A stretch of 64,000 bases of DNA from Kalmusia sp. IMI 367209. Lineage: Eukaryota; Ascomycota; Dothideomycetes; Pleosporales; Didymosphaeriaceae. Positions within the stretch are counted from its first letter, which is position 1, and every line of letters starts with the position of its first letter. The DNA lies in assembly GCA_027946365.1 (NCBI GenBank), contig JAPEUQ010000003.1, positions 744,001-808,000 of the forward strand, read 5' to 3'. Made by a program: the position numbers and the translations under genes. Shown in pieces: positions 11,601-17,818 of this stretch. Under the pieces are notes generated by a model. That model searched no databases and was not told where the DNA came from. It worked only from the letters and a program-made list of their open reading frames with translations.

Positions 11601-14600
11601 CGAAGAGAGACCCTGAACAGCATCCACAAACGAGCTGTCACTTGGGTGAAAGGAGTCCTTGACATTGCTCCACTTGATATCAAGGGATTATTACAAACTT
11701 ACCTCTCTGAATACGATGACGAAGGCGCTTATGGTCACATATCCCTCGGGCGCTCCTTTGCACTTGAGATGGGATCGGTGATTCCCACTACCGATCAGCG
11801 TTTAGGTGCTATCGAGCGACAAGGCATCAATATCAATACTGCATCGGACTTCATCGCGCAGTATACCACACGACAAGAGTATAGATTTGTTGATGGTCAG
11901 ACTGAACAAGATGACGAATGGCTCAGGTTGGATGGATCGTCTCGCGAGGGTCGATCTGCCTTCCGTCGCAGAATCGACGATGCTACCAAGTTGCTCATCG
12001 ATCTTGAAAGTCGGACCTTGAACAACAATCACGTCACCATTGCTGAGCTCCGAGATATCCTCCGACGAGCAGCAGCACTTCTTTGTCGGGTGAAGCTGGA
12101 CCAGTCACCGATTGTGCACCACCTAGTGGGCATTCCCTTCGCAGTTTTTACAAAGCAGTCCATAAAACTTGGTATCTCACTCTGGATGAGTGTCATTAAG
12201 GAGAATCCTCGAATGGAGTCTCGCATTCTAATGTCGATTGCGGAGTGCTGGGAAAATACTGTTCATAAACGCAGAGGCATCTTCAGTCCTGCTTTGAGGT
12301 TTGTAGGCCCTCAAGCTTGATTACGTTACGTTGCTAATACATATAAGACATCCTGACCCATTCTATGGAAAACAAGAATTCGCCCCCACAGACAAGCCAT
12401 ACCTCGCGAAACGGCAGCAACACATTTACAACGTCATTGCTCCCCATTACCGACTTGTGCAGTTCTTGTCCAGCCATTTCAACGCCTCGCGCCTTGGTAA
12501 TCCAGATGTCGAGTTGGTATATAACCGACTAATGCACGTGACGCTCGATGCTTTAATTACTGGGTGTGCTCAGCCGCTTGCTAGAGAAGCTTACTTTCAC
12601 ATTATTCTCCTTGGCTTACGCATCGTACGCCACTGTACCACGCTACCCTCCGCTATCAAATGGCGACTGAAAGATCGTACTCTAAGCGCGGGGCTAGCTT
12701 GGTTTGCCAAAGCGCCAGAGTAAGACCCCCTTACGTATACTAAAGTACTTCGCTAATGGAGTAGGTGGTCGTTTGGTGGAAATCGCCTTCAAATCAAGGC
12801 TGAGACTCATGTCCTATCTGATGTCCAAGCCTACCTCGAGGTTATTGGGCAGATAGGCATTGCCCCAGAAGGCTCCTTGAGATCACTCAAAGCCAAGCAA
12901 GACTTGTTGTCGCTTCTTATCTCAAACGAGCAAACTCGCCTGATGGTGTGGCTATTTCCGCTTGACTATGGCAAAAAACACCACTTCACATCCGGTCAAC
13001 ACAGCAAGACACTAGCAGACGTAAGTTTTACCTTTTCGTGAGAATACACAGGGTCTCAACATTTATTAGGCTGCCGTAGCTTCACACCTTAAGACAGCAT
13101 GGGAAGAGAACCCAGCTATTGCTGTGCACCTTCCTAAGCGCTTCCAAAACCAGCGCCTGATTACAGAAGTGCGCTTCCAAGTTCTCAACTTCCCACAAAG
13201 AGTTCTCAACGAACCCGATGCCCTTGAAATACTGCTAGGCAGGCAACTCCCGAGCGACGTCACCTTCCAACTCAAGGTTCGTAGACGATCCCTCTCTGCA
13301 ATGGTACCTAATTGATCATCTATAGTATCTCATGTACTGGGCATCTTTGAATCCCATTAGCGCGGTCACGTATTTCCTACCCGCGTATGGTAACCACCCA
13401 TTCATCATCCAATATGCGATGAAGGCGCTCGAGAGTCACTCGGTCGATGTTACGTTCTTCTACGTGTCACAGATTGTGCAGACACTACGCTATGATGTTC
13501 TTGGCTATGTTGAAAGATACATCATCGAGACGGCGAAGTTCTCGCAGTTGTTTGCCCATCAGATCATCTGGAATATCAAGGCGAACGCGTACAAAGATGA
13601 GGCGTCTCAAGTGGTAAGCAATCACTTCGTAGCCTCGATACTTTTTATTAACACGGTCTAGCCCGATCCCGTGAAGCCTACGCTGGATAAAGTCATGTCT
13701 AGCCTGGAATCTAGTTTCAGCAGCGCCGACCGAGAGTTCTACGAGCGCGAATTTGCCTTCTTCAATGAAGTCACTGGTATCTCTGGTACACTGCGGTCGA
13801 TCCTGGATAGACCTAAAGAGGAAAAGAAACAAATGATCGAGGAAGAGCTCCGCAAAATTCAAGTCGATGTTGGCGTCTATCTACCCAGTAACCCCGACGG
13901 TGTCGTGGTCGGTATTGATCGCAAGTCTGGTAAGCCGTTGCAGTCTCACGCGAAGACCCCATTCATGGCTACCTTCCGCATCCGCAAGTCCAAGAGCGAT
14001 GCTCTAGAGGAAGAAGGGGTTACCAAAGACGAAATCGCGAGCAGCGCGTCATCGTCCAAGCAAAACTCGTACGAAGTGTGGCAGTCCGCCATCTTCAAGG
14101 TGGGCGATGACTGCAGACAGGACGTTCTGGCACTGCAGATGATCGCTGCCTTCCGCGGCATTTTCAACAATGTCGGGCTGGACGTCTGGGTTTTCCCGTA
14201 CCGAGTGACTGCCACGGCACCTGGCTGCGGCGTCATTGACGTACTTCCCAACTCCATCTCGCGCGACATGCTTGGCCGCGAAGCCGTCAACCGGCTCGAC
14301 GATTACTTCATCAGCAAATATGGGAACGAGGATTCGATCCGCTTCCAAGAAGCGCGCAGCAACTTCGTAAAGAGCATGGCCGCCTACAGCGTAATCTCTT
14401 TCCTGTTGCAGTTCAAAGACCGGCACAACGGGAATATCATGATCGACGATGCTGGCCACATCATCCACATTGATTTCGGCTTCTGCTTCGACATCGCGCC
14501 TGGCGGTGTGAAGTTCGAGCGCGCGCCTTTCAAGCTCACTGGCGAGATGATCGCCGTCATGGGTGGCAGCCAGACGTCACAGCCGTTCCGTTGGTTCGAG

Positions 14601-14858
14601 GAGCTCACCATCAAGGCCTTCCTGGCGAGCCGACAGCACTGCGATCATCTGTGTCATGTGGTCGAGGTGATGTTGGACAGTGGTTTGCCGTGCTTCAAGC
14701 CAGAAACCATCCAGCATTTCAGGGAGAGGTTCGTGCTGGAAAGGAGTGAGCGGGAGGCAGCGGATTATATGCGGGAGTTGATTAAGAAGAGCGCGAGTAG
14801 TTATAGTACAGGTGGGTATGACCGGTTCCAGTTGATCACCAACGGGATTCCGTTCTAG
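8657..14858 (+). CDS. STT4: Phosphatidylinositol 4-kinase STT4 (type III alpha)
   Basis: Nine exons, 8657-8661, 8715-8889, 8941-10560, 10608-12298, 12348-12719, 12765-13020, 13070-13276, 13326-13613 and 13662-14858, keep phase and encode 1936 residues, close to yeast Stt4. The N-terminus reads MTRTIRSNALEKLAKLSAQ, typical of fungal Stt4. A long alpha-solenoid follows, then the PIK accessory domain (about 1390-1540) and the kinase domain (about 1600-1936). Catalytic features are SAIFKVGDDCRQD, DRHNGNIMIDD (catalytic loop, about 1790) and HIDFGF (metal-binding DFG, about 1808). The enzyme makes PI4P at the plasma membrane for actin, cell-wall and endocytic signalling. The 5-nt first coding exon (ATGAC) is unusual. 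The exon 2/3 junction (GTTCGT donor, TGCTAG acceptor) is the weakest splice call; all others have good signals. Confidence 0.95.
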
Positions 14859-15165
14859 ATGGTGGTGATGGAGAGAGTGTGAGGAGTGGTGTAGGTAGTT
14901 TGTTGTTGTTTAAATGCTCATACTCCATTCTCCCATAGATCTGGGGTGATGCTGTGTGAGCATAACTCCGCAGTTCTGACCTGTTAATCCATTCGGACAT
15001 ATAAGCCAGCTCTCGATGGTCAGTCACATGGCCACCGTAACCAAAAAATTGATTAGCCTCTCGCTACACTGTCTAGGATCTATTACAGCCCCGCATTTGA
15101 GATAAAAAAAAACCCCCTCACCCGGATAAGAAGGCGACGAAAAAAAAAAAAAGATGATTCTGCTC
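14859..15165. other. Spacer between STT4 and the tRNA gene, with a Pol III terminator
   Basis: The STT4 3' UTR is followed by 13 consecutive A residues at 15140-15152 on the plus strand. Read on the minus strand this is a T13 run about 13 nt beyond the tRNA 3' end, a strong RNA polymerase III terminator. Confidence 0.7.
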
Positions 15166-15308
15166 TGAGGCATAGCTGATTCGAACAGCTAACCTTCTGG
15201 ATATCCCGAAGTCAGATTCTGGAATCAGACGCGCTACCACTGCGAGTTTGTTAGCAACTGATGTGCCAATTGGCTGTGAAGGGTGATCCTTACTTGCGCC
15301 AATGCCCC
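15166..15308 (-). tRNA. tRNA-Trp(CCA) gene with two insertions (one in the D loop)
   Basis: Read from 15308 down to 15166. Acceptor GGGGCAT pairs with ATGCCTC at the 3' end (one G-T pair), with discriminator A. The D stem GCGC pairs with GCGC. The anticodon arm is TCTGA-TTCCAG, giving anticodon CCA. The T arm AGCTG-TTCGAAT-CAGCT is perfect and includes a B box. A short insert (about 17 nt) lies one base 3' of the anticodon, the canonical tRNA intron position; closing the stem as TCTGA/CCAGA leaves an A31-C39 mismatch. A second, non-canonical insert of 54 nt (15293-15240) interrupts the D loop. Removing it restores a consensus D loop (AATGGTA, or AGTGGTA if cut one base over). T13 follows as terminator. 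The gene could be functional or a disrupted copy. Confidence 0.8.
15240..15293 (-). other. 54-nt intron-like insert in the tRNA D loop
   Basis: On the minus strand the insert begins GTAAGG, contains TTGCTAACAAAC (a fungal branch-site match) and ends CTCGCAG, with about 14 nt from branch to acceptor. These are the features of this genome's protein-coding introns, at the same size. The tetramer CGCA occurs on both flanks. Confidence 0.75.
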
Positions 15309-17818
15309 GCGCATCTCTCTGAAAGAAGAGATGAGATTTGTTTGATGGCAAATTTTACTTTTTACAAATCTATATACGCAGCATGAGATGGGAAAAAAAA
15401 GCGAGCAGACGTTAGTGCGCTTACGTGCTGAGCAGAGAGGGAGGGGCAAAAAGTCCGGCTCACGGAATGGGCTAGAGTGGGGTGTGCTTTGGGGTTAGCT
15501 GGGATCTAGACGCTTTGGTGGGGCGGGTGTGAGTGGTCAGATGGGCTAGGCGGGCTGTGTGGTAGGGTCATTGAAAATGGCTGCACATGGCGTCGTGGTT
15601 AGGGGATAATAAATAAGCCGGATATCGGTGGGCATTCAGTCTTATTGGGAGAAATTCGGTCAGTGTATCTATCTGGTGGATGTGCAGTTCTTGTGTCGCG
15701 GACGATCAGGGGGTTACATGCGTCCAGGACGACTGGCTCCCATGCGGCGCCTTGCATTGGAGAAAGCATCAGGGCCGGTTTCACGTAGCAAAACACAGAG
15801 GATGCATTGCGGGTGTAACCGTTTTTTTTTCCTTTTTTCCGTGTTGGCATCTGGGAGAAGTGTAGCTTGGGGGAATACAGGGCACTAGTCCATTTCTTTC
15901 GTTACGGTCAGACCAGAGTTGCGCAAGAGGACCGGAGTCGGATCGTGGCTCTGGGCCAGATAAGCATCCGAAGCTTTTGCATCCTGGCCCTTGACCACAC
16001 GTTTGGCGCATACACGCACCCGGAAAAAGTAAATCGCCTAATGTTGCTCTGGAGGAGGGGTATAGCAGTGCAAAAGAACAAGCTATACAAAGCAGAGGGG
16101 GTAAGCTTTCGCAACAAGGGGGACTGTGCAGCGCGATTGGACCGCACCGTTGCTTGGATTATCATGAGGATTGTCGAGCATAAGTACAAGGTATTGCTCC
16201 AATGTCTGCGGTGAAGCAGGCCGGGTACGACAAGTTCAACAATGGCCGTCAATCTCGCGTGGCGGCGTTTGCCACGTTGTACGAAGGGAAGCGCGAATGA
16301 GTAGGCCCGCCCGTGTTCCGCGGCTTAAACGCGCAACCTCGTTTGTTTCAGGGCAGTCCATCGCAACTTCTCTGGCTCCACCGTTCATCTATTTGCGTCG
16401 TGTAGACTCATCAAGTCCGGTCTGCATTCCCGCAGATGACGACGCCCCTCTCACCTGCTGGCCGACGGGTGGACGCTTCTTGCGATTCCCCGAACGGGCA
16501 ACACCTCGCGGAATCCGCACCCTCCCCGGCTTGTCTCAGCGTGCCAGGCTGAGCAGAGAAACGACATCAAATACCATGGTTCCTGTGCAGCACATGTACA
16601 TTGGCCACGGTCGCTTTGACAGCTGGCTCTTTCGGGGCTTACCTCATGTCAAACGACACGTACGGGTGCACCCGCGACTTCAGCCCCTGCGATGCGGCTT
16701 GGACCTCGCTGGTCTAGCTGTTCGCTCTACTTCATGCACGGTCATCGATATCCGCAGACGGGCACTGTGCACGCCAATTGCTATTCTTGTGGCTTTTCCA
16801 TCACGTCGAACGCAGACAGCCCGCAGCGCAGATACGAATCTCTCCTCATCAGCTGGCACCCGTTTCCAGCCTCCAAGTGTGCGCAACGCTGCACGCTCCC
16901 ACTAGACTATCCTCCCGTCTCGGACCCCCGCCAAGCCCTCTCCTTTTCCCCAGTGTAGGCCGTCTTTCCGCCCCCCTTCAGATGACTGCCAAGACGGCGT
17001 CGCGTCGCCTTATCCCAATCGCGCCGGCCGACCCACCGCACGCGCCTATCCCCGATGCCCATCCCTGCCTCCCTCCTGCGCCAGACATCAGCAGAACTCG
17101 TCACCTCGTCTCTCCACCCCGGCGCAACCAGGCGTGCTTCGCCGTGCAACGGCCAACCACGACGCCCAACGCGGTGATGTGAGTCGGGATAGGGCTGTCG
17201 CGTGCCCCTTCGGTCCGCTTCTCGTTAACGAGCTGCACGCTTGGCAAGCCTTGGCATTGCCATTGCGACCCCTGCGGTGGTGGCCGCATATGTGTAGCGG
17301 CGGTGCGAGTGTCTTCGTCGCGAATTATATCATGCCGTTATACCCGTGGTACCATTCTGCTTGAAGCTGCTGCTTTCTCTCGCTGCCCTGGTCTGAGACG
17401 GGCGTTGTACGTTGGTGTGCTTTTCGTCTCTTTGTCTTTCGAGCCGTCCGCGTCTGCTTGCGTTGCATTGCCCGCCGTCGTATTCGCTTTCCGCCCGTTT
17501 CTTCTATTTCTGCGAGCCGGAGAAGGCTGAAGACGCAGGTGCTTCAGCTGTCCATTCTTTTTTGTTGGCGCTTCCAGAGGAGTCTCTCGCTGCCGTTCCG
17601 AGTTTGCGCGCTCGGGTCTCCCGCGCATACGTAAGTACCTAAACCTGGAAGAGACCTTGCGGCGCATCTCCTGGCTAGACATGACAAGACGGAAGACGGC
17701 AAGGCGGCAATGGCAAACATGCTAATCTTCGCAGGTATACCCTCCGCGTCGCATTCCGCATATTTCCACCCTGCGCAGTCTCCCTTCGTGACCGTCCTAT
17801 GATCCCGAGAGCGCTGAG
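15309..17818. other. Long GC-rich intergenic region
   Basis: Many open frames on both strands overlap here because the DNA is GC-rich, but none shows introns, domains or a convincing start. The region includes the promoter of the acyltransferase gene. I see no repeat or RNA gene besides the flanking tRNA. Confidence 0.45.

Follow-up and report, generated by a model that had tools for sequence, protein, structure and literature searches.

Inserts with spliceosomal intron signals outside position 37/38 in tRNA genes of the fungus Kalmusia sp. IMI 367209

Introduction

The introns of tRNA genes and those of mRNA genes are usually regarded as separate worlds, served by separate enzymes. Non-canonical introns in eukaryotic tRNA genes are described in PMC4090602 as supposedly rare and mostly as marks of pseudogenes. 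In the genome of Kalmusia sp. IMI 367209 (Pleosporales, Didymosphaeriaceae; 42.8 Mb, 30 contigs), the window, which is the whole 64,000-nucleotide stretch of DNA analyzed here, contains a tRNA-Trp gene split in its D loop by 54 nt with the features of a spliceosomal intron. An earlier note on this DNA suggested that an introner-type element may have inserted into the gene, with two main outcomes, a tRNA in need of the spliceosome (or of an unusual endonuclease site) or a killed gene. The locus then raises the question of whether such an insert is compatible with a working tRNA gene and, if so, which machinery would remove it.

Anatomy of the tRNA-Trp gene

The tRNA-Trp(CCA) gene occupies 143 nt of the minus strand (15308..15166) and is composed of three exons and two introns, all features given here being on that strand. 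Its acceptor strands (GGGGCAT/ATGCCTC), D stem (GCGC/GCGC), T arm (AGCTG-TTCGAAT-CAGCT) and discriminator A (A73) can be read directly. Exon 1 (15294..15308) contains the 5' strands of the acceptor and D stems followed by A14 and A15. It is separated from exon 2 by the non-canonical 54-nt intron at 15/16 in the D loop (15240..15293), which reads GTAAGG..GCTAAC..CGCAG and was delimited by its GT..AG ends and branch motif. The branch-site motif GCTAAC lies at 15250..15255, with the putative branch A at 15251 and 11 nt of the insert left beyond it. Exon 2 (15219..15239) comprises the remaining D arm, the 5' strand of the anticodon stem, the CCA anticodon and nucleotide 37. An ordinary 17-nt tRNA intron at 37/38 follows (15202..15218), recognized by the same length and position in a paralogue (L030); its GGGA would be able to pair with TTCC of the exon, as judged by hand. 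Exon 3 (15166..15201), supported by the sequence and an Rfam match, provides the 3' strand of the anticodon stem, the variable loop, the T arm with the B box, the 3' strand of the acceptor stem and A73.

Upstream, at -68 from the gene start, a TATATA element (15371..15376) is probably part of the polymerase III promoter, and a run of 13 T (15140..15152) that starts 14 nt downstream of the gene would be the polymerase III terminator. On the opposite strand, an open reading frame with a PI3/PI4 kinase domain (13671-14858, plus strand) ends about 280 nt from this T run.

Once both introns are removed the cloverleaf is intact, with the CCA anticodon, A73, B box and terminator all present, and the D loop reads AATGGTA, a consensus sequence. 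The anticodon stem has an A31.C39 mismatch at its foot, common to the window gene and L030. The coordinates, arms, anticodon and T run given in the earlier note agree exactly with the sequence, as does its description of a 54-nt D-loop insert with full spliceosomal signals and a consensus D loop after excision. Three details have to be corrected. The motif GCTAAC, placed by the note 14 nt before CGCAG, ends 5 nt upstream of it; the alternative placing shifted by one base is absent, there being a single mature-equivalent placing for this insert; and the anticodon arm, taken as uninterrupted, is split by the 37/38 intron.

Standard searches pass over the gene in its interrupted form. ARAGORN called no tRNA on the insert-containing gene, and the Rfam scan of the window at its cut-offs reported none either; a focused Rfam search of the unspliced gene reached 18.3 bits with the tRNA model (positions 10-63), the cut-off being 29. 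When the D-loop insert was removed and the 37/38 intron kept, ARAGORN reported a tRNA of undecided isotype (ccag), and L030 was treated likewise. Single-strand folding of the precursor was uninformative (z -1.5).

Interrupted tRNA genes in the genome

The insert is not a lone case. At least 12 tRNA genes of this genome carry 13 inserts outside 37/38. These inserts measure 49-71 nt and fall at 8 distinct positions in genes for 7 isoacceptors. Besides the window gene at 15/16, they are found at 53/54 in two His genes (L009, L010), at 52/53 in four Asp genes (L098, L108, L122, L133), at 25/26 in two Ala-CGC genes (L094, L103), in the variable arm of a Ser-AGA gene (L011), at 34/35 within the anticodon of a Pro-CGG gene (L128, C25:1589864) and twice, at 19/20 and 30/31, in a Leu-CAG gene (L129). 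The positions were numbered by hand from the sequences, and none of the 13 inserts is at 37/38, the site of Sen-type introns. The interrupted Trp, Asp, Ala and Pro genes have a 37/38 intron in addition. In the Pro gene, bases 34 and 35 of the anticodon are parted by the GT..AG intron, with the 37/38 intron further downstream, and thus the order of splicing would be forced.

The set of 12 genes was assembled from an Rfam search, B-box patterns and gene patterns, and it is a lower bound. The genome-wide Rfam tRNA search gave 61 matches with 63 of 1270 candidates scored, and it missed L030, a tRNA of 49 bits. The B-box pattern search marked 64 places against 19 in the control, and 63 of the 64 were covered, the other being mitochondrial. 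The pattern GGTTCGAYCCC marked 45 places against 26 in the control, and its 32 new places yielded one clear tRNA (L172) and a doubtful one (L175). The resulting tRNA list is incomplete, tRNAs for Phe, elongator Met and Lys-TTT being among those missing from it. Yeast and human tRNA sequences gave no match as DNA queries. Also, six contigs from a viral-contig scan for fungal relatives had no such gene at the match, and two further scans of this kind returned no contig.

Ordinary 37/38 introns are abundant, being present in 51 of the 64 tRNA calls made by ARAGORN at loci other than those with inserts elsewhere; the remaining 13 calls are intronless. This collection served as the control set, and it includes one gene called twice (L006 and L069) and two doubtful tRNAs (L131, L175).

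Splice signals of the inserts

With boundaries chosen as GT..AG among the 1-4 equivalent placings of each insert, all 13 inserts have GT..AG at a mature-equivalent boundary together with a CTRAY motif that leaves 9-12 nt after the branch A. One of the two Leu introns was first placed elsewhere and then shifted so that the stem is restored. In contrast, none of the 51 control introns at 37/38 has GT..AG at equivalent boundaries, and none combines GT..AG with the branch motif even when the boundaries are slid by up to 4 nt on either side. The split of 13/13 versus 0/51 has a probability of 7.6e-14 if the genes are taken as independent, which paralogues are not. In simple shuffles of the Trp insert, GT..AG with the branch motif arises in 0.00055 of cases, and for the 13 inserts, with equivalent placings allowed, the fraction ranges from 0.0006 to 0.0035. 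Against a spliceosomal reading stands the fit to the splice-site consensus: the fungal donor GTRWGT is complete in just two inserts (those of Ala L103 and Pro L128) and one base off in the other 11; the acceptor is YAG in nine and AAG in those of the four Asp genes. The fungal branch consensus is given in PMC5832005 as RCTRAY at 6-36 nt from the acceptor, and the R preceding CTRAY is found in 7 of the 13 inserts. Inserts with a T4 run are absent (0/13) where shuffles expect 1.7, a deficit that is not significant (P 0.16).

The mRNA introns of the window provide a local comparison. Spliced protein alignment of two protein genes allowed six introns of 44-56 nt to be drawn, the last of them doubtful. 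Four of the six contain a CTRAY whose A is followed by 10-12 nt, and of the two without the motif one is doubtful as an intron. Their donors vary (GTGAGT, GTACGT, GTACGA, GTCAAT, GTCCGC), and one acceptor is AAG, as in the Asp inserts.

These observations bear on the possibility that the inserts are introns of the tRNA endonuclease (Sen) at ectopic sites, such as those of the red alga Cyanidioschyzon merolae, of nucleomorphs and of some archaea. The Sen enzyme is expected in this fungus because many of its tRNA genes have 37/38 introns, and the positions 25/26, 30/31 and 53/54 are among the non-canonical archaeal ones listed in PMC4090602. However, the signals that all the inserts share and the 37/38 introns lack argue against an endonuclease origin, and so does size, since 49 of the 51 introns at 37/38 measure 6-35 nt and the inserts start at 49 nt. 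The reading of the inserts as ectopic Sen introns is then improbable. A bulge-helix-bulge with a 4-bp central helix is also missing from the 13 inserts at any equivalent placing, in a weak test that just 6 of the 51 introns at 37/38 pass.

ARAGORN called a tRNA on all 12 spliced forms, with the expected isotype in 11 (Trp undecided), and on 4 of the 12 unspliced forms, with the right isotype in one of those four; deletions of equal length elsewhere in the genes were also called in 16-59% of cases (11 genes, Leu left out). This deletion control and the bulge-helix-bulge test, both weak, were dropped as evidence.

Asp and His genes and paralogues of the interrupted genes

The Asp and His genes carry the greatest weight for function. 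Over the whole genome and with up to 3 mismatches allowed, a 27-base Asp pattern found four genes and a 26-base His pattern two; all six are interrupted, no intact Asp or His gene appeared in these searches, and the control gave no match for either pattern. A shorter His pattern of 17 bases marked 136 places (178 in the control), namely the same two genes exactly and 134 places with 2-3 mismatches, and ARAGORN recognized no tRNA at the seven loci with two mismatches. An intact Asp or His gene, strongly diverged or unassembled, may still exist. If there is none, the Asp and His codons could not be decoded without removal of the inserts. The functional claim is made because these two families were found only in interrupted form; the Trp gene alone would not carry it.

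Two fragments, at L122 (C23:298934) and L134 (C26:487056), match 31 nt of the 3' part of spliced tRNA-Asp and are devoid of the T-stem intron. Each is preceded by TGCAGTATCTGTTTTTATAC, no 5' half is recognized, and the B box of an interrupted Asp gene precedes theirs by 0.26 and 0.71 kb. They could be remnants of intron-less genes or copies of spliced RNA.

A comparison of paralogues reveals that the exons, with the 37/38 intron set aside, are identical between the two His genes, among the four Asp genes and between the two Ala-CGC genes, while the introns outside 37/38 have diverged. Their identity is 82% for His and 80-92% for Asp, with the donor, branch region and acceptor kept, and the two Ala-CGC introns have no mutual BLAST match at E<=1, yet both retain GT, the branch motif and AG. 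Ser-AGA has the intact paralogues L055 and L063. Of 81 places, four differ between the spliced L011 and L063, and a pair of them, 7 and 74 in sequence numbering, fall on one acceptor pair and replace G-C by A-T, as paired by hand. For Pro-CGG, the intact paralogue L099 equals the spliced L128 over the first 36 and last 40 nt.

For Trp, L030 (C9:199150) is a second gene (89 nt, 49.1 bits), which lacks the D-loop insert and has a 37/38 intron of 17 nt. This gene, first seen as a pattern match with 2 mismatches, rules out that the window gene is the sole tRNA-Trp gene and thus the only Trp source. The mature bodies of the two differ at 10 of 72 places, none of which breaks a stem, and 8 of the 10 are compensatory changes at four base pairs (3-70, 4-69, 29-41 and 52-62 by standard numbering). 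This suggests that the window gene diverged from L030 while still under selection as a tRNA. The insert may have been gained before or after this divergence, and the window gene may be dispensable or newly dead, given L030. ARAGORN also read CCA at L127 (C23:3758096, minus strand; 39 bits), with an 80-nt insert at 37/38, and at L175 (C23:1747875, minus strand), a doubtful tRNA with a 122-nt insert at 37/38; neither insert is GT..AG.

These comparisons allow an evaluation of whether the interrupted genes are pseudogenes, that is, redundant copies hit by inserts while intact copies do the work. Uninterrupted paralogues do exist for Trp (L030), Ser-AGA (L055, L063) and Pro-CGG (L099), and according to PMC4090602 insertions in the D or T arm of eukaryotic tRNA genes usually affect a single member of a large set of synonymous genes and are regarded as pseudogenes. 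The earlier note had named transcripts that always keep the insert, together with many intact tRNA-Trp genes, as a sign of a disrupted pseudogene, and at least one uninterrupted gene is indeed there. However, it is difficult to reconcile dead copies with Asp and His families found interrupted in every member (four of four and two of two), with exons that stay identical while their introns diverge, with the compensatory changes in Trp or with splice signals in all 13 inserts, and the idea of a killed gene is therefore considered unlikely.

Introner-like elements occur in Dothideomycetes. The spread of introners or other mobile elements with splice signals into tRNA genes, along the lines of the earlier note, would agree with the intron-like size and signals and with the short CGCA repeat found at either edge of the Trp insert, but it is the least probable of the explanations weighed here, because no second copy of the Trp gene or insert appeared at E<=10 (in a search of limited sensitivity that missed L030), the His gene search returned only its own two copies, and inserts of different tRNA families share only matches of 8-13 nt with E>=0.14. 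Moreover, it concerns the origin of the inserts and not their working, and could thus apply to older events.

Proposed processing pathway

The most consistent interpretation, to which we assign a probability of roughly 80%, is that the inserts are spliceosomal introns in tRNA genes transcribed by polymerase III, and that the spliceosome takes them out before the tRNA goes through its ordinary maturation. Correspondingly, the 54-nt D-loop insert of the window gene is best explained as a U2-type (GT-AG) spliceosomal-type intron, and a tRNA in need of the spliceosome, one of the readings of the earlier note, is the one that fits best.

We infer from the sequences the following course of events. 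Polymerase III would transcribe the window gene with the help of its TATA element and of A and B boxes that seem to stay functional despite the introns. In the Leu and Ala genes, the introns seem to begin downstream of the A box. In the Asp and His genes, the AG end of the intron would join GTTCGATTCC or TTCGATTCC, so that the B box is kept. The A box of the Trp gene would be lengthened by the intron, whose GTAAGG would contribute a GG. The spliceosome would then recognize donor, branch site and acceptor and excise the GT-AG intron from the tRNA precursor. Only after this removal would the tRNA fold, and RNase P and tRNase Z would act on the ends and the Sen endonuclease and ligase on the 37/38 intron.

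Under this scheme the cell probably needs its mRNA-splicing machinery for making some tRNAs. A stronger version, which we consider likely, is that tRNA processing in this living ascomycete cannot do without the spliceosome, all tRNA-Asp and tRNA-His and some of the tRNAs for Ala, Leu, Pro, Ser and Trp losing a spliceosomal intron, in one gene from within the anticodon, before Sen removes any 37/38 intron. If this holds, the whole of translation would rely on two systems of intron removal that work one after the other on the same RNA. Also, splicing of these tRNAs by the spliceosome would mean that mRNA-type introns can invade tRNA, that the tRNA supply is tied to splicing and that polymerase III transcripts get to the spliceosome more widely than thought.

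Comparison with known systems

Among the titles and abstract openings listed by searches of CC-licensed PMC papers, no report of spliceosomal introns in tRNA genes was found, which does not prove that none exists. What is new here would be ordinary-looking spliceosomal introns in tRNA, a class of RNA for which those searches yielded no described case. Fungal genes of this kind may go unnoticed, since tRNAscan-SE 2.0, as described in PMC8450103, searches for non-canonical introns in archaeal candidates. A tell-tale sign would be a fungal genome seemingly without Asp or His tRNA genes.

Among tRNA introns, the ordinary eukaryotic type at 37/38 coexists with the non-canonical one in the window gene, and the two differ in position, length and signals. 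Introns outside 37/38, several to a gene and alongside 37/38 introns, as observed here, are described for the tRNAs of Cyanidioschyzon merolae, of nucleomorphs and of Crenarchaeota (PMC3978253, PMC4090602). However, those papers link the ectopic introns of C. merolae and archaea with splicing endonucleases and bulge-helix-bulge motifs, whereas GT, AG and a branch site are found here. The ectopic introns of the Guillardia nucleomorph, for which the same sources give 3-24 nt and an unknown mechanism, are shorter than the 49-71 nt of the present inserts.

Closer parallels are found in other structured RNAs. An mRNA intron in the 18S rDNA of deuteromycetes is on record by the title of a reference in PMC11782384, and the 2017 account of PMC5832005 names U3 and U6 as the sole small structured RNAs in which introns are known to be frequent. 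According to the same account, the introns of fungal U3 snoRNA resemble the tRNA inserts in being short and GT-AG, with an RCTRAY branch site, in a structured RNA made by polymerase III. They occur in the vast majority of the Pezizomycotina analyzed there, and intact and interrupted copies can coexist, as in this genome. A difference lies in their location, 133 of the 138 U3 introns of that paper being in the 5' half of the RNA, whereas the tRNA inserts are scattered over the cloverleaf. U6 snRNA of S. pombe and other fungi likewise has an mRNA-type intron in a polymerase III transcript, the same arrangement proposed here for tRNA; the four U6 loci of the present genome (L080-L083, one of them shorter, 73 nt) have no insert at the lengths matched. 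Nonetheless, U6 is itself part of the spliceosome, whereas tRNAs do not belong to it and have to go through RNase P, tRNase Z and Sen as well.
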